Shown: one piece after another, positions 1 to 34,190 of the stretch
Position numbering within the stretch: position 1 is the stretch's first letter
Layout of the letters: each line of letters starts with the position of its first letter
DNA from: Candidatus Absconditabacterales bacterium
GTDB lineage: Bacteria > Patescibacteriota > Gracilibacteria > Absconditabacterales > Absconditicoccaceae
Assembly (NCBI GenBank): GCA_937930555.1
Contig: CALHCH010000089.1
Location: 1 to 38,162 of the forward strand
Length of the DNA: 38,162 bases
Direction: 5' to 3'
The notes under the pieces: generated by a model
Databases searched by the model: none
What the model was told of the DNA's origin: nothing
The model's input: only the letters and a program-made list of their open reading frames with translations
Translations under genes and position numbers: made by a program

Positions 1-1227
1 GATGGTATTGGTAGCACCACTCACAGCTGGTCCGTGATCTGCTAGCAGTATCAGTATACTATCGATAAATCTCAACGCATAGTCTGGTAATTCTTTTTGT
101 AACCAGAGATGTCAAATCACATTGGACACACTCCCCTGCTGCACAAAATCTGAGATATTGATACCATTATATTGCAACTCATCACCTCTTTCATCAGCAA
201 TAGTTGAGGTGAAGTTTGTTTTTCTTCTCCCACGCAGGACTGACATCTTGCGTTCTAGCTCGGTCGTATCTACCTCAGTATATCCTATACCATGCTCATC
301 TGCTACCTGCTGTATCAAATCCCCAAATCCATCAAAATTAGAAGGAACAAAAGCACCAGCTTCGCGAAGGTAGGTATTTTTGTGACTTGCTGTCTCCTCC
401 TCACTATTTGCTTTGGCTCACGCATGACCAAACTGTACTTCCGTCTTCATTTTTTCTGCTGACTCGCCGATACATCGTGCAACGACTGGCTTGGTGATCT
501 CACCAGAGGTGATCATATCAGCTATCTGCATCTCGATACGATTGCCTACTTCTCACAGGAGTACGATCATCTTGATATCGTCTTGTGACTCTAGGTATTG
601 GATCACAGGCACAAACGGCATCATAGGAAATCTATCACCTCATATCTGAAATGCACTATGCACTCCATCACTACGACTACTCACGATACGGCAGAGCTCA
701 TTCATCATACCACCTGATTTGGTCACGATACCTACTGACCCTGGAGTGGTGAGTCTAGATTTGAGTATATTGTCTAGTGATCATCCAGTATGTCCGATAC
801 GAAATACTCCAGACAGCATAGCTCCCACAATCGATGGCCCAAACAACTCTACATCTTTGTCTTGAGATAGAGAAATCAGCTCTCTCGTCTCCCTCTCTGC
901 TACTCACTCTGCTATGGTAAATATATGCTTAAATTTTTCTGATGCGATAGCTTCTTTGTTTACTGCTGTACAGCTACGAAACGAAGCGAGATTGATCAAT
1001 GTATCCACATTTGGAAATTGATCAACCTGATCCCAGCTATGGATGGTCGGGATAAACATCTCCGTATCACCAAAAAATACCTTATACTTTTTTCCTGATT
1101 TTTGTGAGCTAAAAACCGCTCTCACACTAGGCGATCTCCCGCATAGATAGTCGTAGTCTAGCATGTTTTGAACGATTCCTATATGGGTACCGTGTAGTAT
1201 TGCTTCAGAGCTTGGTGTAAAATCCAT
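1..1227 (-). CDS. aclA: ATP-citrate lyase, large (CoA-ligase/citrate-synthase) subunit, 3' end cut off
   Basis: This subunit works with the neighbouring small subunit to cleave citrate with ATP and CoA into acetyl-CoA and oxaloacetate in the cytoplasm. The 409 visible residues align well from memory with the C-terminal half of animal ACLY. They start [13 protein letters not shown], have the [11 protein letters not shown] and [11 protein letters not shown] segments, and carry the catalytic phosphohistidine motif EVQFGHAGAKA with His near residue 268. The second glycine of that motif is encoded by TGA. The reading frame continues off the left edge after [13 protein letters not shown], so about 200 residues of the citrate-synthase-like domain are missing here. 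It starts 29 bases after the small-subunit stop, so the two genes form an operon. The names follow the Chlorobium convention (AclA large); plants use the reverse. Confidence 0.93.
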
Positions 1228-1256: not shown

Positions 1257-2549
1257 TTATACTATTTGTTCCATAAAATTTGTCATATCAACCTCACCAC
1301 CCGCTACATCGTACTCCAAGCCATGTTTTTCACAAAAACTTTGCATCAAACTCAATCATTCTATATCATTCACTCATCCACGTCTGATTATAATCTTGAT
1401 ATTTTGAGCCTTGATCTTATCTACCCTGTCTTCCAATGCATCTACAAATGCTTGTCATACAACATCTATTCTAGTAAAGTTCGCAATTGGTCATAGATAG
1501 CATAAGTATTTTTTACCATTTGATGTACTTTTGTACAACATATCAAAAAGTCATTGTATGTATGCTCTATTATGTCGATAATTTGGATTACCCGATAATT
1601 CTCCATAGTTTATCACCTCGTCCATCAATCACATATCAGAAAATTTGTCCATAATTGCAACACTAGCTCATCCACTTCATAGCAACAATCCAATTCTTCA
1701 ATTTGGATGTAGAGTTGTAAATTTCAAACTTGCTCAAGTCTCCGCATCCATACTTTCAACTTGCAACTCAAATTCACTACTCTCAGCTCCAAAAGCCTTG
1801 ACCCAAGACACATGTTTCCAGTTTCTTTGTTTCCATTCTTCACAGGTATCTACCCTCGCTACCATATCCAAACACACGACATTACTCCCCTCTCCTAGCG
1901 AAGCGTTTGGGACAAGGTGAATGACGGAGTCAGAGGAGGTGCCCTGGGGTAGAGGGGTTGGGGGTGAGGGTATTACAAATGGATTGACCTCTAGATAGGC
2001 AAATCACTGATCTACAAAAAAACTATAAAAACGCATCACAAAATCCTGAACTGCAGTGTTGGTGATACCGAGCTGCGTGACACTCTCGATATCCAATAAC
2101 GATCCCACTGGGACTTTGATCTCACTCACACTGTCTCGATTTTCTTCTACCTCTACCCCTCACTCAGTGGAGAAATATATGATATCATTATCTCTGTCTG
2201 TTTTGATGGCGATATACCACTCATCATCGTGAGGCACAAACTGCTCTACCAAAAACGTATCCAGCACTCACTCCGTGCCATCTATATCCATAGTCTGCTG
2301 CCATCTCTCTTGTATCCAAGATATCACGCCTGCAGCATCGAGCTTGACTCACACGAGTCCATACTTCCCTCTTTTGCCAAACAACTGATCCGGCTTGACC
2401 ACAAATTGCTCTATCCCTGTCTCAGCGAGACGTGACGAGAGACTATCTAGCTCATCCTGCGATGAGACCAACACTCACTGATATGATATACCACTATATG
2501 CCGACCACAAGGTCTTGGCGTCATATTCTCTGATTGCTCTTTGTGACAT
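1257..2549 (-). CDS. aclB: ATP-citrate lyase, small (ATP-grasp, citrate-binding) subunit
   Basis: This is the ATP- and citrate-binding partner of the adjacent large subunit, 430 residues. It corresponds to the N-terminal half of animal ACLY: MSQRAIREYDAKTL, then FVVKPDQLFGKRGKYGLVG, then FVPHDDEWYI, TEGGVEVEE, YLEVNPFV, and a C-terminal part with LLLGGGGASVV and NYGELSGNP. ATG at 2549 is chosen because the protein then begins like its relatives. An extra run of about 29 residues (SPPTPLPQG through SLGEGSN) sits just after the conserved EVNPFV strand, where relatives have only a short turn; it is encoded by a palindromic repeat described separately. A terminator lies upstream of the gene (2590-2620), so transcription probably starts between that terminator and 2549. 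Confidence 0.93.
1886..1970 (-). repeat. Palindromic repeat inserted in frame in aclB
   Basis: On the plus strand this stretch begins CTCCCCTCTCCTAGCG and ends GGGGTTGGGGGTGAGGG, so its ends are C-rich and G-rich and can fold on each other. In the coding strand it reads PSPPTPLPQG...LGEGSN, a peptide signature I know from dispersed palindromic repeats in many bacterial genomes. It keeps the aclB frame and adds about 29 residues at a surface turn. The edges are approximate. Confidence 0.7.
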
Positions 2550-5000: not shown

Positions 5001-5705
5001 TTATACCAACTCCAAAACATATCACGTTTTTTTTACTTTGCATCCATAGATCTCTCAGAGCTTATCTACCACAGCACCTGCGTCGTATCTAGGGTCTTGA
5101 GGAGATTTGTAATATCGGGTATGCTGGTCTATGAGGGTGATATCAGTCAGATGCATCCAATCCTGAAACATCTGCGAATAGGTACATACCAAAGAATTTT
5201 TCTTCCCATTGCGCAATCACCAAAAAACCTCTGCCTTTTGTTTTTTGGTACTCTGAGAATGCAACAACAAAAATCATTCATTCTCGATATCTATATTTTT
5301 ATCGTTTTGGAGTGACCAGACGTTGGGATAGATTATCAGCGACTGAGATGGTATATCCGATTTTTTTACTTTTTTTGCTAGTCTTCTTTTGGCTACCTCT
5401 TCTGGATCTGCGAGATATAGTGGGATTGCTTTTTTGTATGCACAAAATCGATGATGCGTAAATCGGTGTAGCATCTGCAAGGACTGCTCCGAGAGGAGTC
5501 ATTTTTGTATCATGATGATCTCAGCGTCTTGGAGTTTGGGTTCGATGTATTTGGTATACTGCTCTACTCGACTCAGTGACTCTCATAGACATAGCACATA
5601 TCCATATCCCACCGCCTCAAAAAAGTCTCAAGCAACCGTATCTGCTACATATGCCTGAGCTATCCTATCGTGACCATAATATCTATCAAAAAAATAGTAG
5701 TACAT
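5001..5705 (-). CDS. Degenerate PriA-like protein, function uncertain
   Basis: A 234-residue protein starting MYYYFFDRYYGHDRIA and ending KKTGYVLELV. Its second half follows the order of motifs in the PriA primosomal helicase: SQSLIIYPNVWSLQ (PriA: SLLLVPEIALT), LLLHSQSTKKQKAEVFWGLR (LHSSLSDSERYEVWRKVR), LVCTYSQMF (GTRSALF), ITLIDQHTRYYKSPQDPRY (LIIVDEEHESSYKQ..PRY). The DEEH box has become IDQHT and there is no Walker A motif, so it is unlikely to be an ATP-driven helicase. It begins 12 bases after the toxin stop and follows trpS and a TA pair on the same strand. An in-frame TAG just upstream limits the start to this ATG. It could be a DNA-binding relic or a repurposed protein. Confidence 0.5.
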
Positions 5706-17686: not shown

Positions 17687-18694
17687 CTACACACTCCTCA
17701 ACATCCCAATCACCTGCTGAAAATACTCCACATATCAAGTATCCAATCACATCTCAGCGAAGTCCTGCTCTACCCCATCCAGCAATACCCCAATCTGCCT
17801 CTGCACATGCTCCTGTATATGGTAGGTCTCAAACAAGGTCTGCAATCTCTGCATACTCTGCTCATCTAGCTTAGCACCTCTAGCTGATCGTAGTGTGTGG
17901 AAATCTGTCTCCGAAAAATGTTCGTGACAAGCTTGCATCACGACAGTCTGATTTCATTCTTGGATATCGGACATTTTTGTTTTTCATTCTTTGTTGGGTA
18001 TCCAGTCCAAGAGATCATCTCTCATCTGAAACGCGACTCCTATCTTTTTACCAAGTTTGCTTACAAGCTCCAAATCTTCACATCCAGCTAGCGATGCACC
18101 GATCATTATCGGTTTTTGGAATGTGTACTGTCCTGATTTGAGATGGTCTTTGGTGGCTATCTGCTCCGAAGTCTTGAGCTGGACAGTATGGCTAAAATCA
18201 ATATCTAGCATCTGTCCTATCACGACTTCATTGAGCATATCCATCACGATCTGATGGGCGTGAGTGCCGGTCATTACTGTACATGCCTCCTGCAATGCTC
18301 GAGTGTATACCAGATCTCCCACAAGCATCGCCTGAGAGAGTCATACATGTGTGTCATCATATGTGGCAGCGAGATGTTGGTGATAGGTCGGTATCTGATG
18401 TCTCATCGTGCCCTGATCGCAGATATCATCGTGGATCAATGCAAATATGTGTATCATCTCCGACACGATACCCACCTGCGTGATATACTCTAGATCCTCT
18501 CATCCATACAGGCTATATCGCAGATACACCATATATGGACGAAATCTCTTGCCGTGATCTACATATGGTCTGAGATAGGTCAGTAAATCAAAGGTCTCAT
18601 CATCAGGAAAATATCCTCTCACAGACTCAAGCTTGCTCTCTAGCCAACTCTCCAGTGCAGTATCAAAATGCGTTTTATATGCTTGTAGATTCAT
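17687..18694 (-). CDS. Polyprenyl diphosphate synthase
   Basis: A 335-residue trans-prenyltransferase that condenses isopentenyl diphosphate onto an allylic diphosphate. The first Asp-rich motif is FALIHDDICDQGT (about residue 88), preceded by GKRFRPYMV, and the second is GVAFQMRDDLLDW (about 226). The GGPP or longer-chain product cannot be decided from memory. It lies divergent from crtI over a 95-base spacer that holds a perfect palindrome, and crtB and a UbiA-type prenyltransferase follow nearby, so a role as the GGPP synthase for carotenoid synthesis is likely. The C-terminal region IQEGNQTVVMQ has a TGA-coded glycine at the usual position. Confidence 0.88.
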
Positions 18695-18744
18695 ATCACT
18701 AAGTAATATCCTTCGGTCAAATAGAGAAGAAAGTAAGTAAAATT

Positions 18745-18765
18745 ATTACTACCTCTTGTAGTAAT
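18745..18765. promoter_or_regulatory. Perfect inverted repeat in the divergent prenyl synthase/crtI promoter region
   Basis: ATTACTAC, five bases, GTAGTAAT: an 8-base perfect inverted repeat centred 40 bases before crtI and 60 before the prenyl synthase start. This placement suits a shared operator for a dimeric regulator. A hairpin in the mRNA is the alternative. Confidence 0.45.
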
Positions 18766-18789
18766 CCTCAACACAATTACAACTGTCAT

Positions 18790-20316
18790 ATGCAAAAATC
18801 TACAAAAAATATCGCTATCATCGGTTCGGGTTTTGGTGGACTGTCGGCTGCCTGCTATCTCGCACAGCAGTGACATCAAGTCACCGTATACGAAAAAAAC
18901 GAACAGCTCGGTGGTCGCGCAAGTGTAAAACGTGCCGAGGGATATACCCGAGATATGGGTCCTTCGCGATATCTGATGCCTGACTTATTTGAGGAGTTTT
19001 TTGCTGATTTTGGCAAAAATATCCACGACTATCTGGATCTGACTCAGCTGGATCCTAGCTACAAGATCTACTACAAAGACAATCCCACGCATCCTATGAT
19101 AGATGTCTCAGCCGATATAGAGACAAACCGTGAGACATTTGAGTCTCTGGAGCCTGGCTCAACAGACAAGCTCTATAAGTATCTAGAAAAATCCAAGTAC
19201 ACCTACGAGATCGGGATGAGTCAATTTGCTACCAGAAATTATGATAATATATGGGACTTTTTTAGACGAGATATGGCGATCAAAGGAGCACAGATGAAGA
19301 TATTTTCTTCTATCCAAACCTATGTCAAAAAATACTTTGCTTCTGATGAGATGCAAAAAATCATCCAGTATCCTATGGTGTTTCTCGGCTCTCCTACCGA
19401 CAAAACTCCCGCACTGTACAATCTGATGACCTATGTGGATTTTGGTATGTGAGTGTGGTATCCGCAGTGAGGGATGTGATCGCTGGTCCAGGCGCTGGTA
19501 GATCTGGGTACTGAGCTGTGAGTGACTTATCGCACTGATAGCGAGGTCAGTCAGATCATCACTACTCCAGCGGCAACCAAGTGGCGACAGCTGTGAAAGA
19601 AAAAATCAAAAGTAACCGCTCTCCAGCTGAGCTCCTGAGAGATCGTACAGATTGACGCTATTGTCTCCAATGCTGATATGCACTGGACAGAGACACAACT
19701 GCTAGATATACCAGATCAGACATACAATGAAGCATATCGAGACAAGCACGTCCTCGCTCCAAGTGGGTTTTGTATGTATGTATGACTGGACCGTAAAATT
19801 GAAGGCCTGGAACACCATACCCTGATATTTAGCGAAGATCGAGAAAAGGGGAACAAAGAAATATTCTCCACCAAGACCTACCCTACCGATCCCTCCTACT
19901 ATATCTGCTGCCCGAGCAAGACTGATCCTAATGTAGCTCCAGAGTGAGGAGAAAATCTATTTTTCTTGGTGCCGTTTCCGTCTCGTATACAGATGGATGA
20001 TAACGCCAAACAAGCATATAGAGACAAGATCATAGCAGATGCGCAGCAAGTCCTGTGACAACAACTAGAATGACACATCGTCCACGAAGAAATCTTCTGA
20101 CCTGATGAATTTAACAAAAGATATCACGCCTATGGCGGCAATGCACTCAGTGGATGAGCGCATCTGTTTCGCCAGACAGCGATATTTCGCCCACACAATG
20201 TCTCCAAAAAAGTAGATGGGCTCTACTATGCATGATGATATACCAATCCTGGTATATGAGTGCCGATATGTATTATCTCTGGGAAGTTGGCGAGTGAGAG
20301 GGTTGAATTATTATAA
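18790..20316 (+). CDS. crtI: Phytoene desaturase-like enzyme
   Basis: A 508-residue FAD-dependent carotenoid desaturase. The N-terminal dinucleotide fold is IAIIGSGFGGLSAACYLAQQ, then YEKNEQLGGRAS. The family-typical region FLGSPTDKTPALYNLMTY is followed by GMGVWYPQGGMGSL, in which the glycines are TGA-coded. The C-terminus ends with GLYYAGGYTNPGIGVPICII, the FAD-closing motif of CrtI. It converts phytoene to coloured, desaturated products. The ATG at 18790 is the only one placing the Rossmann motif near the start. Divergent from the polyprenyl synthase gene. Confidence 0.9.
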
Positions 20317-20341
20317 ATTATTCATAACTATATATTGACTT

Positions 20342-20353
20342 AACAATATTGTT
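20342..20353. promoter_or_regulatory. 12-base palindrome in the promoter region of the HD-domain gene
   Basis: AACAATATTGTT, a perfect palindrome just after a TTGACT (20336-20341) that could be a -35 box. It lies 44 bases before the HD-domain start codon. The AT-rich context lowers its weight. Confidence 0.3.
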
Positions 20354-20396
20354 TATTATCTTTGGAAGATATATTTATTCTCCTAGCATTAGCAAT

Positions 20397-21362
20397 ATGT
20401 CGATTCGTGATGCGTTACATACAATTGAGGTTGATGATTCATTGATAGATCATGAATATCTAGATGAACAAGAATCATTAGAAAAAAGAACTAATCGTCG
20501 ATGATATTTTGCTTTTACAGAAAAAGAATTGCTGCAAATACTCAGTCTAAGACAAAAATGAATGATATGAGATCATCGGAAACCTTTTTTGGATTCAAAA
20601 TGAGAACTGAAAATACATAGCAAAGAATGAGCACATATGTCAGTATATATGGATGGTAATGTAAAAGATCATCAGAGATTACAATCTCAAGAAATCTGAT
20701 ACTATGGCTATGCAAATGTCATCACATGATACCATACTGAAGAAGAACATAAGTTGCTAACAATATTATGAGACACTCATGATTCTGGTGAAGCGAGAAC
20801 TAGAAAGTGAGACATTTTGATTATGAAAAAAGAAGAAGATGAAGAAAAGTTAGATAAAATGGATGAGTATCTAGAGTGAATAATGGTGCATCTCAATAGT
20901 CTCAAATCTCGAACTGAGCTGGATGCTAATCAAAACGATAAAGCCTATGATATTGAAAAAGCTCTACTCCAGATATATGAGATAAATGAAAATAAGAAAC
21001 ATCCGCTCTATGCATCATTTTCAATGTATGAAAAAATATCATATCTAGTATGATGAGTATATGCACTAAAACAATCAAATCATCTAAATGACTTGAATGC
21101 TCTATTAACAGTGTTGCTAAAAAGACAAATGAAAAATTTTGAACAATATATTTCATCACTTAATTATGGTGTTTTACTTTTTCTAGATGATTATCGTTTA
21201 GAGATTGAGAATATGTTTCAATATGTATTAAAATCAAATCTAGATAATGACTTCATCAAAGCCTATAAGAAACGAGGAGAGTATGAATCAATTTTAGATC
21301 AACACACAAATCAGATTAGTGAAATTAGATCAAAGGTAGTGGATCATTTTGAATGAGAGTAG
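20397..21362 (+). CDS. HD-domain protein, function unknown
   Basis: A 321-residue cytoplasmic protein. The N-terminal half carries an HD-type metal phosphohydrolase signature: GYHTEEEHKLLTILGDTHDS, then GEARTRKGDILIM, in which THDSGEA corresponds to the HDxGE core and GDI to the downstream conserved segment. The C-terminal 170 residues are helical (YAVKQSNH-like repeats; LLKRQMKNFEQYISSLN) with no domain I know. Many glycines are TGA-coded. It lies between crtI and a REP-associated transposase and has no clear operon partner, so the substrate cannot be inferred. Confidence 0.6.
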
Positions 21363-21439
21363 ATTCTAGCGCATATAAGCTTCTATATGTTTTATCTCTA
21401 TGAAATTGATAAGTAAAAGCCAAGAGACATAAAAACTTT

Positions 21440-21922
21440 TTACCCAACCCATCTCATAGGATTTTCCTTGATATACTTGCGGATGCGATCTAGATCTTTC
21501 TCATCACGTATTATATGGTCATGATAGCGTCACTGTCGTCAGAAAGGTATATTATTACTGTTGGCATATTTTGTGACACGAGCTTTGATATTGCGTATAA
21601 TAGATCATATCGTCTGTTTTTCTTTTTGATCCAAAATCCCCAAGATAATATGCACATGGTCTGGCATGATCACAAACTCATCTACCACTACATCTTTTCT
21701 GATAGTTTGGGTCTGCAAGATCTCCTGATGGCATACCTCTCATATTTCAGTCAGCTGGAGGGACACATTGCCATATGTCCCAACGATAGCTGACGGACTG
21801 ATAGTACATAGCGAACGTACACGATTTTTGGTGTTGAAAGTCACGAAATAATATCACACCTGAGAGTAATCATATCACTCCAGTCTCGGTGACTTACGAT
21901 CCAATATCCTCACTCTCGTCAT
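21440..21922 (-). CDS. REP-associated tyrosine transposase (RAYT, Y1 family)
   Basis: A 160-residue Y1 transposase. The HUH motif is VIMPDHVHIIL (His89, His91), and the C-terminal part is YHDHIIRDEKDLDRIRKYIK with ENPMRWVG at the end. The N-terminus YYFVTFNTKNRVRS is typical of RAYTs. Such enzymes cut single-stranded hairpin repeats next to their gene. Hairpin repeats lie immediately upstream (21965-22006). TGA codons are read as glycine in the active enzyme, so it is adapted to this code. Convergent with the HD-domain gene. Confidence 0.85.
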
Positions 21923-21964
21923 CACCACACAACACAAACTAAAAACTCTACACACCTACACACA

Positions 21965-22006
21965 GGACACTTGTGTCCGCTCGTAAGGACACACGGAAGT
22001 GTGTCC
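21965..22006. repeat. REP-like hairpin pair next to the RAYT gene
   Basis: Two hairpins eight bases apart: GGACACTTGTGTCC (21965-21978) and GGACACACGGAAGTGTGTCC (21987-22006, perfect 8-base arms). They lie 43 bases upstream of the RAYT start codon and share the GGACAC/GTGTCC arm, the expected arrangement of a REP pair recognised by the transposase. Confidence 0.75.
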
Positions 22007-22053
22007 ACAGCAGGACCATACATGAGTCTCACACATACTACCACAAGCAATCA

Positions 22054-22956
22054 CTACATGAGTACCACCCAAAACAACACAAACCCCACCCCCGCATTGA
22101 TCCGAGGAAATCGTCTGTACAGACTCATCACATCTGATGAGAAGCTAGCAATGATCATCGCAAGATAGACTCATCACATCAGGAGTAGCGGCACTCATAC
22201 GACTGTATATCACAGATATGCTGCGAGTGCCCATAGCAGACCACAGTATATCAGCGTACCACGCTTGCCTAGAAGGACGGCTGTGGTGGTGAGACCTGCC
22301 TCGCGGTCAGGCTGTATATCAGGTATAGCGCTATATGCGTGCATCGCCATAGCCCACAGCCGTGCTGCCACAAAGGCTACTCGGCTAAATCACACTATAC
22401 TATTGCCTGCTACTATCCATCATACCACCGATGGGAGGATATACAGGATGTTGAATATCCCGTCAATGAAGGGTTTGGATTTGGCGCGTATGGGCTTGCT
22501 ACTATAGTAGTAGGCAGACAACCAAAACAGTACCAACGCCAGCCCTCACCATCGTCGCTGAGCATCCATATATACATATCTCTGCACATAGATCAGCAAT
22601 ACCAACAAGAGTCCTCACTCTATACCATTGAATAGCCAGATCTTGCGAGAGAGTCGGGATTTTTGGTTTTCTTGCAAAGCATCTTCATAGCCTTGTTTTT
22701 TGATATTATGTTTGTCGGTATCGCCATCAGCGATATCATTGACGCCGTATACAAACAAATTGGCACTAAAAAGAAAGTAGTCTACAGCAGTCAGCAACAA
22801 CAAAAACATCGGCACTGATCGATAGATCGCAAATCCAGCAAATATATCACCTCAAGTCTGATGTACTATCCCTGCTATCCATCCAATCAAAAATGGTCCA
22901 AACATATACATCCAAAACCTGGGTCTAGAAATTCTAATCAAGCGTTCCCATTGCAT
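22054..22956 (-). CDS. UbiA-family prenyltransferase (lycopene elongase-like)
   Basis: A 300-residue polytopic membrane protein. It starts MQWERLIRISRPRFWMYMFG. The first Asp-rich motif is FVYGVNDIADGDTD (about residue 74), with a second motif AIPDIQPDREAGLTT (about 215); these bind the prenyl diphosphate and magnesium. Between them AYYYSSKPIRAKSKPF is typical of UbiA enzymes acting on carotenoids or quinones. Its start overlaps the end of crtB by 23 bases, so it is co-translated with crtB. This context favours a lycopene-elongating type of reaction (C45/C50 carotenoids), but other prenyl acceptors are possible. Confidence 0.85.
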
Positions 22957-23848
22957 AGCGTATGGTCTTAAACAATAAAGTGCGGAGTTTTTCAAATTTG
23001 GTGGTGCGTGCGGTACGAGTGAGGGTGTCGTAATCATTGCGTATGATCTTGTCCAGGATAGACTCATACATCCAGCTAGCTACCAGCACTGCTCTCCTCC
23101 CCTGAGGATGCAGGAGCTGGATGCCTTTGTTGGCCTCACGATATAGCTCCTTGCATTGCAGGACTTGAGCAGACACAAACTTTTGCCATCTCTCATCTAC
23201 TGGCTTGCCTTGGACATACTGCGTGAGGAGTATATGGTTGAGATCGTGCTGCAGCAGACGATCCTCAGGCATATAGATACGATCGTATTCAAGTAAATCT
23301 TCCGATATATCTCTCAGGAAATTGGTATACTGCATCGCCTCTCCTAGCAACTTAGCAGTACGCCACACCTCCTGCTCCTGACTCTCATCATATCCGATCA
23401 GCTTGCACATCATCAGCCCGATCACCTCCGCCGAGCCATACATATATCACTGCAAGTCCTCATATGTCCTATACACCTTCTGATCCAGGTCCGCATACAT
23501 CGCAGCAAAGAAATCCTCCACCCACTCCAACGGTATCTCATACTGATGACACAGACGCGACATCTCACGACTCACTTCTATCCGATCTGAACGATCTCCC
23601 CCCTTGATAAAGGGGGGTTGGGGGGGATTTGAAACAATAGTAGAGGTTTGAAAAACATCCACAAAAATTCTCCACATCTCGTCCAGCTCCTGTCTCGCCA
23701 GTACAGGATCTGCCGCAGGGTCATCTACCACATCATCGGGTATTCTGACAAACGCATACAACGCGAAAACATCATCCCTCACCTCTTGAGGAAAAAACCA
23801 ATTCGCTACATAGTAGCTGGTGCCGTGTTGTTGCATATATTTTTGCAT
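22934..23848 (-). CDS. crtB: Phytoene synthase
   Basis: A 304-residue squalene/phytoene synthase that joins two geranylgeranyl diphosphates head to head. The two Asp-rich motifs are FVRIPDDVVDDPAAD (about residue 40) and TNFLRDISEDLLEYDRIYMP (about 180), and MYGSAEVIGLMM is the conserved Y.SA.VIG segment. Between residues 70 and 86 an extra SNPPQPPFIKGGD run is present, encoded by a G/C-rich palindromic repeat (23590-23632). ATG 23848 gives MQKYMQQHGTSYYVANWFFP, the normal N-terminus. It overlaps the UbiA-type gene downstream. Confidence 0.9.
23590..23632 (-). repeat. Palindromic repeat inserted in frame in crtB
   Basis: The plus strand reads GATCTCCCCCCTTGATAAAG, GGGGGGTTGGGGGGGATTTG: C and G runs that pair across a short loop. 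In crtB it adds SNPPQPPFIKGGD. The signature NPPQPPFxKGG is familiar from dispersed palindromic repeats in other genomes. It differs from the aclB insert, so two element types have entered genes here. Confidence 0.7.
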
Positions 23849-23884
23849 TGTTTTGTTTGTATGGAAGTATATTTTGTTTGCGAA

Positions 23885-23923
23885 CAAAAAGCCCAACCAA
23901 AATTCTGATCGGGCTTTAAAAAA
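23885..23923 (-). terminator. Intrinsic terminator before crtB
   Basis: On the minus strand AAAGCCC, loop, GGGCTTTTTG. It lies after the 23939 stop and before crtB, separating the gene at 23939 from the carotenoid operon. Confidence 0.75.
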
Positions 23924-29474: not shown

Positions 29475-32400
29475 CTATTCGAATATGGAGATAGTTCCTG
29501 TATCTCAATCTACCTCTACATTCATTCAAGTTTTTAGAAGATCTGTGGCATTTCCTGTTGCTACTACGCAAGGTATTCATAGTTCTCTAGATACTATTGC
29601 AGCGTGGGACATCATTCATCATTGATTAGTAATTATTGCTGAAGCCTTATTGCAAGCTGCTATGATACTAGGTTCTGTACTTTCAGCAACAAGTATTTCT
29701 CAATGATTCATTTCTTCGACTAGCTTACTTACTTCATCATATTTGCTTATATCTACTTTGATAACCCTAACTATACCATTCACTTTTCATCAGCTTGCAC
29801 TTGTTCAGGAGATCTTATCTCAAGACTGTTGGTACAGATGATTGAAAGCTGGATAGACTTGTTCTCAAAACTCATAAATCAATTCTCAATTATCAGAATA
29901 GATTAAATGTCATTTCTTTCTTTCCAACAAGATCTTATCTTCAATAACTCCATCATCAAATAATCTCACTGCATCATCAATTTTATAGTATCTTAAATTA
30001 TCCTCTGAGATTCAGAATTGCTTGGAGAGCTTTGAAATTATTCAATTAAAATAACAATCAGGAGTGAAGCACATCTTATTCAAGAAAGCTCTACCATCTA
30101 ACTTGAGTTCCTCAAAAGTTTCAAAGTTTTTTTTGACTACTTCATCCTGTTGTTGATACACTAAATCTGTGTAGAAGTATTCAGTCAATCTATACAAGTA
30201 ACGAAACTTTTGCGACAAAGCAACATATTCTTTAAAATCAGATTTAGTAATTTTGTCACTCGATATGATATGTTGATACTGTTGAGATACTTCTTGCTTG
30301 GTGTTAATAATATCTTGTTGATATTCTTGGTACTTTTTACTATCTCAATATAGTTCCAATCATTCTTGATTAGTTTCTTTTTGTTTCTCGGTACTCATAA
30401 AAGATACTCGTTGATTATCATTACAAACTACCATACACTCAAGGTCGGCATATAATCTAGAAAACTCATCTGAAATAATAAAAGGCACTGCAGAATCAAA
30501 TTGGAATAGTCTAGTATAATATGAGTTGTTGAGTTTCTTTATAACCTTAGTAGTCAGATTCTCTGATCTTTTAATTATATTAACTACGCCATTATGAGCA
30601 TCAACTTCTACTTCATCTCAATCTTTGAAAAACTGAGTTGCAAACTTAGTTCATATTATACAAGGGACACCTAATTCACGAGAAACTATTGCAGCGTGGC
30701 AAGTGATTCAGCCTTCATTAGTTATTATGGCTCAAGCTTTTTTCATTAGTGGTACAAACTCAGGACGAGTCATCGAGGTCACTAAAATATCTCAATCATC
30801 AAAATCATTGAATTGGCTTGCGTCTAAAACAATCTTGATGTTTCATATCACGTGTCAGGCAGTGGCTGTAGTTCATTCTATTCTTCAAACGTTTCACTTA
30901 AACTTTTTGCTGACAAAAGCATTCTCAATCTCATCCATATCAATTTGAATATTATTGGACTCTAAGACATTAACTGGCTGAGATAGACTTTCAAAACCAT
31001 TTATTCTTGCTTCAATATTTTCCTTATTCTTTTTAATATGATTGACTCAAGACTGAAGATCAAAAGGATGTAGTAGCATACAGAAGCTCTTATCTATTCA
31101 GACTCTCCTGCATACATCTAAAGAAATTTTATAGAATAATGCCTGACACATTGCTATCTCATCTTTCCTGTAATCTCTCAACCTGATAACATATCTACAG
31201 TATCTTGCTATCTTATTATGCAGTTCAGAAGCGTCAGCTTGGACTTGTGTATTATCAACCACTTTACTTTCAATATCTTTATATTTCACTAAATCGTTTT
31301 TAATGTAATCCAAGCTTTTCACTTCCTTGTAGTCTGTATATAGATACAAAGCAAGCATTGCAGTTTCATTTCATATTACTCATCATTGAGCTAACAAACC
31401 TTTTTTATACTCGTGCCTTTTTTCAAATGAATCAAAGGATTCATCAGAAATTTTTTTCACAATAATGGTAATATCTTCTTTTGAAATTTGATGACTATCA
31501 AGAACATCAGCCATTATTTCTTCGGTAAAATTTTCTATAAATAAAGTTCTTGTTATGATCTCACTATACAATGATTGTAGACTTTTTGCCAAGTCAGTAA
31601 CATCATTGTCTGAATAGTTTCCCAAATCTTTTACTATTGTTGTCTTATATAATTCAATAATGTCAGAAGCCTTTTCTGTATAATACTTTTGAAAGTCATC
31701 TATATTAAAATCATCATCTAAGTAATTCTTAAAATGATTTCTTGCGATATCACCATAAGCAGTCTCGCTAAAGACTATTAGAGATTCATCCTTGCTCCAA
31801 GCTTGATACATTGGAAATCATCATTCGTCCATTATCCAGGTAGTTAAAAACAATGGAGCATAAGATCATCTAATAACAAAAGACTTATCATCTCATAACA
31901 GTGTTTCAATTTTTTTAGATAATTCTGCCTCTTGAGTATTTTTTTCTATAATTCTCACTACGCCATTATCGGCATCTACTTCAACCTCATCTCAATCCTT
32001 TAGAAGTTGTGTTGCAAATTTGGTTCATATAACTGATGGTAATCACATTTCTCTTGATACTATTGCAGCGTGACTAAGCATTCATCCAATGTCTGTAATG
32101 ATAGCAGTAGACTTTTGCATTAGTGGAACAAAGTCAGGTGTTGTCATAGTAGTCACTAATATATCTCAATCTTGAAACTTGTGAAAGTCGTCAGTTGCAT
32201 AGATAACTCTCACTTTCCCCTTAGCGTATCATTGATTTCATATCTGTCATAATAATTCATTATCACTTTTTGGTTTCGGGACCATCTTATTTTGTAGATA
32301 GGTTAGATCAATTTTTGATTCAGATGTTCTAATATTTTCTTCTTCATCAAAATATAATAACCAATTATGATCTCTACGCGTTTCAATCAATTTAAGATAG

Positions 32401-34190
32401 TTATCTTTAGTTAGCTTGTTTTCAAGAATTTTTCTGATCTCAGGTGGAGTAAGGTGAAGCATATCTCTATATGAAATAGCTAAGTTCTTTGCTAGATTCT
32501 TTAATCGATCGTCTAAATGAAAAGATAATATCGAGGAATATTCTACTCAAGCTTGTCTTACAAATGTTAGATCTTTACTAGCGTCAAGAAACTCTCTAAA
32601 TTCTTCAGAAACTTTGTTATAATAACTTGCTGATTGTCTGTGCTCAGTATGGTTTGCAATAAGATCAAATAACTTTTCATTTGTCATTTTCTCTCAAATA
32701 TAATTGATCATCTCTATCCATCAGTATTCATCAGTGTGTTTTTCAAAAGCTGTATTTATTTCTTTTTCAACAAGAATTTCTTCAAGGGTAGCTTTATCAA
32801 GTCATTTTTCTGCAATTAACTTCTTAATCATTCATAGATCTTTTTGTTGGTCTAGTAGATGTGATGAGATCTTCGGTATCAATCAAGGTATTTCTTCCGC
32901 AGGAATTTTTTCACTCATTGCTTTATCAGCTAAATGTGATTCAAATGATTCTGATAATAAGTATCAAAAACACCAATAAGTCATATAGGTTTCTGCTATC
33001 TCTACAAATCTATCAAAATCATTTACAGTAATATCTTGATTGCTTCAGATCAACTTGATTTCATCAAGCAATCAGTCAAAATTTTTTCTAGCACTCAAAG
33101 CCAGTTTATGATATTTATCAAATGAATTTGATCAAACATCTTCAGAAACAATCTCATCAATTTCTAGTAGAATATCTTTGTCAGCAAAAAAGTGTCATCA
33201 ATTTAAGATAAGTATTCAAGACTTTGAGATATTGAAACCAAGTTTATTAAGTGTCTCTTTATCAAATCGTTTTAACCAAAAGTATGCAGCAAAAATATCA
33301 TTTCTTCGTAGTCAGAAAAAATGATAGTTTGAGTACTTTATCTGATCTAGTTGTGAATCAGTAAATTGATGTGACTGAATTGTGGTAATTGGTCTTGCTT
33401 GCAAGATATACAACTGACCATCTTCCAAAGCCCATTCTATATCCATAGGTTTCTTGTAGTGTTCTTCGATTCTTTCTGAGATTTTTGCTAGTTCTATAAT
33501 ATGCTCATCTGACAGCTTTTGCACTCACTGTATTGTTGATTCAATTTCTTCCTCTTTGATTCATCATTTATCTATATCAACCACAAGCTTCTTACTCTGA
33601 GTGCTAAAGTTCTTTTCAAGAATCTCTTTCTTGGGTTTACTCCGTAGGTAATTATCTGGTGTAATCATTCAAGATACAACAGCTTCTCATAGTCCATATC
33701 ATCACTCTATAATGACCTGATCAGTATTGTTTGTGACAGGGTTAGCAGTAAATGATACTCCAGCTACTTCACTATTTATCATTCTCTGTACCACAACAGC
33801 TACCTTTATCTCATCTTTATCTATTCATTTAGATTCACAATATGCCTTGATGCGATCTGAGTTGATAGACTTATGACATTCCATTATTTGTTCTAACAGA
33901 TTTTCTCTATCTACAAACAGGTATGTTTCAAACTGTCCTGCAAAACTATCATCTACTCCGTCTTCTTTGGTCGCGCTACTTCTTACTGCAACATATTTGG
34001 TAGCTAGTTGATCAAATGCTTCATATATTTTATCTTTCCATTGATTGTGATCGATACCAAATGCTTCGGTAGTAAGGACGAATCAATCAGAAAATGGAAA
34101 TCACGCCCTCATAAGTTCGCCAAGCGATGCTCACTTACCACCACAAGTAGGCACATCAGCAGATGAGATTTCTTTGAATCGTTTGATCAT
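29475..34190 (-). CDS. Giant PEP-synthase/rifampicin-phosphotransferase-like protein with three swivel domains
   Basis: A single 1571-residue frame with no TAA or TAG. Residues 1 to about 270 are a pyruvate-phosphate-dikinase-type ATP-grasp domain: [71 protein letters not shown]. Helical regions of 300-400 residues alternate with three phosphohistidine swivel domains: [15 protein letters not shown] (His707), [15 protein letters not shown] (His1165) and [15 protein letters not shown] (His1529), each followed by a VEVDxxxG strand. There is no C-terminal PEP-binding TIM barrel, so the plan is like rifampicin phosphotransferase with the acceptor and swivel part present three times. Over 60 glycines are TGA-coded. 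The substrate is unknown; phosphorylation of a small molecule or protein is inferred. It precedes the histidine-phosphatase gene. Confidence 0.85.

Follow-up and report, generated by a model that had tools for sequence, protein, structure and literature searches.

An in-frame repeat in the ATP-citrate lyase gene of a code-25 bacterium probably derives from a mobile palindromic element linked to DUF559 nuclease genes

The ATP-grasp/citrate-binding subunit of ATP-citrate lyase, AclB, carries the residues IPSPPTPLPQGTSSDSVIHLVPNASLGEGSN immediately C-terminal of EVNPFV, raising the question of where these residues come from and how an enzyme gene can take them in. The original prediction read them as a palindromic repeat spliced into aclB in frame at 1886-1970, in a recoded host, and likened it to the mobile palindromes found in frame in essential-type enzymes of Rickettsia. 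The source genome (1.2 Mb, 89 contigs) belongs to code-25 family f1, and aclB lies on its contig G000:C89. Genes of the window, by which we mean the whole stretch of 38,162 nt that was analysed, are open solely when TGA is read as glycine. The 430-aa frame of aclB runs through 15 such codons and contains IPSPPTPLPQGTSSDSVIHLVPNASLGEGSN at these coordinates, confirming both the recoded host and the in-frame position. The element proper occupies 1886-1969, 84 nt or 28 codons. The features of the locus are as follows.

1..1227, minus strand: aclA, partial, the partner subunit gene, with the FGHAGA phospho-histidine motif (motif read from the sequence)
1257..2549, minus strand: aclB, ATP-citrate lyase ATP-grasp/citrate-binding subunit, 430 aa in code 25, the host gene (PF24948, PF16114, PDB ACLY)
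1886..1970, minus strand: probable solo palindromic element in frame in aclB (84 nt, R1 model match at 1886-1969), multi-copy in its own genome and with an empty site in relatives and PDB ACLY
1887..1895, plus strand: left arm of the element, CCCCTCTCC (14-copy alignment)
1913..1951, plus strand: 39-nt module of the long subfamily, CAAGGTGAATGACGGAGTCAGAGGAGGTGCCCTGGGGTA (14-copy alignment)
1952..1969, plus strand: right arm GAGGGG and G-rich tail, TTGGGGGTGAGG (14-copy alignment)
Peptide stretches of AclB spanning the insert: EVNPFVIPSPPTPLPQG and ASLGEGSNVVCLDMVAR

Insertion of the aclB element is well supported by comparison with AclB orthologues from three congeners (G001, G002 and G004) and three more distant class members (G012, G060 and G078). 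All five orthologues with an unbroken open reading frame (G001, G002, G012, G060 and G078) have an empty site in full-length alignments, reading EVNPFV-ITS-DTVICLDMV, EVNPFV-LDS-DGNIVCLDMV and similar. The AclB of congener G004 likewise has no room for the insert; its reading frame is shifted exactly at the insert hairpin (L038/L032, G004:C18), perhaps through an error in sequencing. In citrate lyase subunit 1 (PDB 6hxi) and the human enzyme (PDB 3mwd), query residues 194-222 are skipped and both flanks align. The inserted residues are thus absent from the relatives, as the idea of a spliced-in repeat had anticipated. The insertion point is the β-hairpin turn that joins EVNPF, the ATP-grasp strand, to the strand LDMVARVD, and AclB gains 25-27 residues there; judged from the ACLY fold this turn is probably exposed, and a single-sequence AlphaFold model computed without an alignment was uninformative (pLDDT 43). 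The catalytic AclB motifs KPDQLFGKRGK, EVNPF and LDMVARVD are intact and AclA retains FGHAGA, so these motifs give no sign of a dead operon, the circumstance that would have undercut the proposal, and AclB is predicted to remain functional with the insert exposed on the hairpin. No AclB was found in viral contigs.

The insert is one member of a family. Further copies in its own genome share 83–92% nucleotide identity with it (E values down to 1e-26), and a covariance model, R1, built from 14 own-genome copies (13 far from DUF559 and one in leuS) finds 24 copies there, establishing that the aclB repeat is neither chance nor an isolated case. The 14 copies follow a modular consensus, CTCCC(C)TCTCC - TAGCGAAGCGGTTGGGA - GAGGG(G) - CTGGGG(G)TGAGGG, with optional 12-nt and 39-nt modules: a GC-rich hairpin (CCCTCTCC...GGAGAGGG) with a G-rich tail (GGGGTGAGGG) at one side and room for internal modules. 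Strong copies span 36, 45, 57, 60, 63, 84 or 96 nt, a multiple of three in 20 out of 20, and nearly all of the roughly 24 copies lie in frame within conserved genes, with a single copy upstream of nusA. Family scans confirmed as hosts MurC, DnaA, LepA, RsmA (two copies), PheT, LeuRS (three copies), AlaRS and HemW, together with D-aminoacyl-tRNA deacylase, RlmD, MsrA/B, ArgRS and VWA, DUF58, FemAB, ABC and Nth-type proteins. With multiple copies, empty sites and in-frame insertions in about 20 genes besides aclB, most of them essential, the comparison with Rickettsia holds up well. Orientation relative to the host gene is the same in 15 of 19 intragenic copies (p = 0.02). The endonuclease III gene (nth; L007, G000:C18:5415-8475) carries, in frame, a long mosaic insert built from several kinds of repeat, a CHAERNEVESK repeat among them.

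For almost every host gene, congeners are empty at the insertion site with flanks aligning on both sides, and R1 copies are missing altogether from congeners G001, G002 and G004. The insertions in dtd, the second rsmA copy and leuS site 1 are common to the source genome (G000) and G003, with a different loop module in two of the three cases, as reported for Rickettsia elements, which can take each other's place at a given site (PMC3767692). The 39-nt module occurs five times in the genome, always in genes (aclB, murC, lepA, dnaA and tsaC/yrdC), and in 287 other genomes of the class it gave chance-like matches only, none convincing. The palindromic character claimed for the repeat stands for the family and hardly for the aclB copy itself: short members fold as hairpins (z -1.8 to -3.7), whereas the aclB copy is weakly palindromic and folds no better than shuffled sequences (z about +0.4) because the 39-nt module breaks up the stem. 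Folding of the aclB copy was accordingly dropped as evidence of a palindrome.

Reading frames of these copies depend on the genetic code. In code 25, three to six of the six frames are open in each copy (three or four in long copies); in code 11, the long copies have a single open frame out of six. Four copies, those in murC, dnaA and tsaC/yrdC and the third one in leuS, have TGA codons inside the insert in the frame of the host gene, and these insertions are tolerated only because TGA encodes glycine, their frames requiring the recoded code. Reassignment of a stop codon is in this way concretely linked to the tolerance of mobile DNA.

The genome's single DUF559 gene (PF04480, E = 4e-27) sits in frame in leuS with an R1 copy on either side, the two in opposite orientation (G000:C25:5061-5105 and 5508-5564), an arrangement that prompted a test of DUF559 flanks elsewhere. 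DUF559 is also the domain of the E. coli YcjD family and Vsr-like nucleases, and its conserved residues, an invariant D, ExDG and H, mark it as a PD-(D/E)XK/Vsr-like domain. Across the class, the 30 best DUF559 loci, picked by DUF559 score only, show R1 matches just outside both domain ends, and a sequence-agnostic test for inverted repeats in the flanks places 22 of the 30 above the 95th control percentile. Named genomes scanned with a DUF559 alignment (80 loci, the best matches; 376 controls) extend this to Bacteroidota, Acinetobacter, Cyanobacteria, Chloroflexi, Planctomycetota, Omnitrophota, archaea and CPR: inverted flanking repeats exceed the 99th control percentile at 54 of the 80 named loci, and about a third have no clear flanking inverted repeat. 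Of the 129 R1 matches at these loci, 104 lie no more than 250 nt from DUF559, where 11% would be expected (p = 6e-75), with at least one match near DUF559 at 52 loci and matches on both sides at 30. Since R1 was built only from own-genome copies, this test is essentially independent; the share of in-frame cases is a biased one, because the alignment that picked out these 80 loci as its best matches was itself built in part from such cases. In a set of 79 genomes, R1 palindromes occur with DUF559 in 13 of 14 (Fisher p = 0.001); one genome, G014, has palindromes and no DUF559 above threshold, and congeners G001, G002 and G004 have neither. Solo copies share their ends with the palindrome-DUF559-palindrome units, the own-genome R1 model matching unit ends elsewhere.

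No clean nucleotide-level empty/filled pair was found in E. coli or cyanobacterial plasmids, and neither a transposition event nor an exact boundary was observed; ycjD, present in most E. coli genomes, gave no such pair, and DUF559 copies within genomes are too diverged to define element boundaries. R1-like palindromes lie downstream of ycjD, the E. coli DUF559 gene between sapF and fabI (L316, L317 and L322), whereas in some lineages (JJ1887 and EDL933) efflux genes follow sapF in its place, and strain N3 has an SMI1/KNR4 gene at that position. In two genera (L342 and L338; G192 and G204), DUF559 is oppositely oriented within the same flanking region, as if it had flipped between inverted palindromes or been inserted twice.

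Many complete palindrome-DUF559-palindrome units also lie in frame inside conserved proteins. Family scans identify as hosts UvrC (two sites), Elp3, IleRS, MurD, MiaB, MiaA (here at the amino end), TsaC, RibE, RarA, LeuRS, RecG, MnmA, MetRS, HsdM, HsdR and type ISP enzymes. The peptides flanking in-frame DUF559, about 15-40 aa and encoded by the palindromes, mostly bear the same signature on both sides (PSP...PLPxGEG or GRGxGGEG). Pfam and NCBIfam scans of these hosts return host domains and DUF559 only, with no splicing domain around DUF559. LeuRS presents several states at two sites. At site 1, G000 and G003 carry a solo palindrome, G041 a palindrome-DUF559-palindrome unit and G004 no insert; site 2 is occupied by DUF559 in G000 and G033 and by a Nudix domain in G003, and is empty in G004. 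The leuS gene of the source genome (G000:C25:3941-7912, L099), encoding 1,324 aa, additionally contains an in-frame α/β-hydrolase domain and an apparent nucleotidyltransferase-like stretch, and LeuRS inserts elsewhere comprise a Nudix domain in G003 and Nudix plus hydrolase in G004. DUF559 units occupy a similar position of RibE (riboflavin synthase) in four genomes of the class (L221, L227, L229 and L230).

The most economical view groups solo palindromes with palindrome-DUF559-palindrome units in a single family of mobile element, and we assign a probability of roughly 0.78 to the aclB insert being a solo copy of a frame-compatible mobile palindromic element whose complete form carries DUF559. 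The complete element would consist of two inverted palindromes around a gene for a DUF559 PD-(D/E)XK/Vsr-like nuclease and may also sit in frame within proteins without splicing. Its movement, and the part of DUF559 as mobilising enzyme, we infer: DUF559 would act on hairpin or nicked DNA, and solo copies would have been moved in trans or be remnants left after loss of the nuclease. A length that is a multiple of three, together with most of the six frames being open, would mean that insertion into a surface loop adds a flexible peptide rich in Pro, Ser and Gly and the gene survives, and code 25, with TGA as glycine, would open additional frames. In its widest form the proposal, which we favour on balance, is that palindrome-DUF559-palindrome may constitute an undescribed class of bacterial and archaeal element, translated in frame and unspliced in essential genes, with solo GC-rich coding palindromes, that of aclB included, as small derivatives, and with TGA reassignment having widened the range of tolerated frames in code-25 bacteria.

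Other activities could have placed the palindromes. DUF559 might be a homing-type nuclease that hitch-hikes into existing palindromes moved by something else, a reading we regard as unlikely: Vsr-like (EDxHD) homing endonucleases are known from the literature and the orientation and flanks of DUF559 vary, but at most loci palindromes stand at both DUF559 ends and inverted, as the ends of an element would, and the genus members without DUF559 (G001, G002 and G004) are also without palindromes. It is less probable still that the palindromes are REP/RAYT-like, moved by Y1 transposases of the IS200 (RAYT) type with DUF559 as unrelated cargo. Y1_Tnp genes do occur in this genome and genus, one of them in the window (21440-21955), and RAYTs are the known mobilisers of GTAG REPs (PMC3733652). 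However, the window gene is RAYT-like and adjoins its own palindrome (GGACACTTGTGTCC...GGACACACGGAAGTGTGTCC, within 21440-22012), of a family distinct from the aclB element; no R1 copy was found directly flanking any RAYT gene, throughout bacteria it is DUF559 genes that R1-type palindromes bracket, and the R1 consensus has no GTAG tag.

That no mobile element is involved, the insert being an ordinary lineage-specific extension of a coding loop or a chimera of assembly or binning, is very improbable. The loops concerned vary naturally in length in relatives (for example, in MsrA and HemW) and the assembly is fragmented into 89 contigs, yet copies in unrelated genes and in different frames keep 83–92% DNA identity, some recur in G003 at the same positions, and the copies lie mid-contig within otherwise conserved reading frames.

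In-frame coding palindromes have precedents in the RPEs of Rickettsia and Wolbachia, and intragenic REPs are known elsewhere (PMC10969869, PMC3767692, PMC3733652). Like the Rickettsia and Wolbachia elements, the present ones are short, palindromic, multi-copy and in frame in many unrelated, often essential genes, use several frames, and share insertion sites among relatives, with pheT a host in both (PMC10969869, PMC3767692). They differ in sequence and phylum; in length, forming modular multiples of three of 36-96 nt where RPEs measure 100-150 bp; in residing in a code-25 host, some frames depending on that code; and in bracketing DUF559 genes, whereas the cited accounts of RPEs name no enzyme. 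The one-end CGTC tag of the RPE-4/-6 type (as defined in PMC3733652) is absent from the aligned consensus ends. With REP/BIME sequences and their RAYTs (REPtrons, including intragenic GTAG and CGTC REPs) they have in common short hairpins with an unpaired tail, a sometimes intragenic position, frequent proximity to a gene for a single-strand DNA-processing enzyme, and hosts that include DNA repair and tRNA genes (PMC3733652). By contrast with REPs, they bear no GTAG or CGTC tag, are mostly intragenic rather than intergenic, and are associated with PD-(D/E)XK-like DUF559 rather than a Y1 HUH transposase; a GTAG-tagged hairpin flanking a Y1 gene was not found for this family. Inteins and homing endonucleases offer a further parallel, a nuclease reading frame sitting in frame at conserved sites of essential proteins, with a given site filled in some relatives and empty in others. 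Unlike inteins, DUF559 is bracketed by Pro/Gly/Ser-rich palindrome-coded peptides only and has no splicing domain, and solo palindromes are predicted to stay in the protein.

The literature searched, which covered few subscription titles, contained no account of such coding palindromes in CPR bacteria, in keeping with the original prediction, and none of DUF559 with flanking palindromes or inserted in frame; it gave the domain name only. Beyond that prediction, the analysis adds the link to DUF559, the modular lengths in multiples of three and the dependence of some frames on TGA as glycine. If confirmed, the DUF559-palindrome link would define a new class of element and a rival to inteins for life inside essential genes, and DUF559, a widespread but unexplained nuclease gene, would become a testable enzyme for the long-standing puzzle of coding palindromes. 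The density of coding palindromes is high for a minimal recoded genome, reaching leuS, dnaA and lepA.

The window contains a second type of element, listed below, with the architecture CCCCCC-TTGATAAA-GGGGGG-TTGGGGGGGATT, which also flanks DUF559 in loci from Poribacteria, Omnitrophota and Deltaproteobacteria (L270, L271 and L304).

23596..23629, minus strand: second element type CCCCCCTTGATAAAGGGGGGTTGGGGGGGATT, in frame in crtB and coding for NPPQPPFIKGGD, absent from the CrtB of relatives

Its host gene lies in a carotenoid-type cluster (17687-23896) encoding a polyprenyl synthase, a CrtI-like desaturase, a UbiA-like protein and CrtB, and the presence of such a cluster and ATP-citrate lyase genes on one contig is unusual for a CPR bacterium. 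Farther along the window, 29475-34190 encodes a 1,571-aa protein in which PEP-utiliser/swivelling modules are repeated three times.
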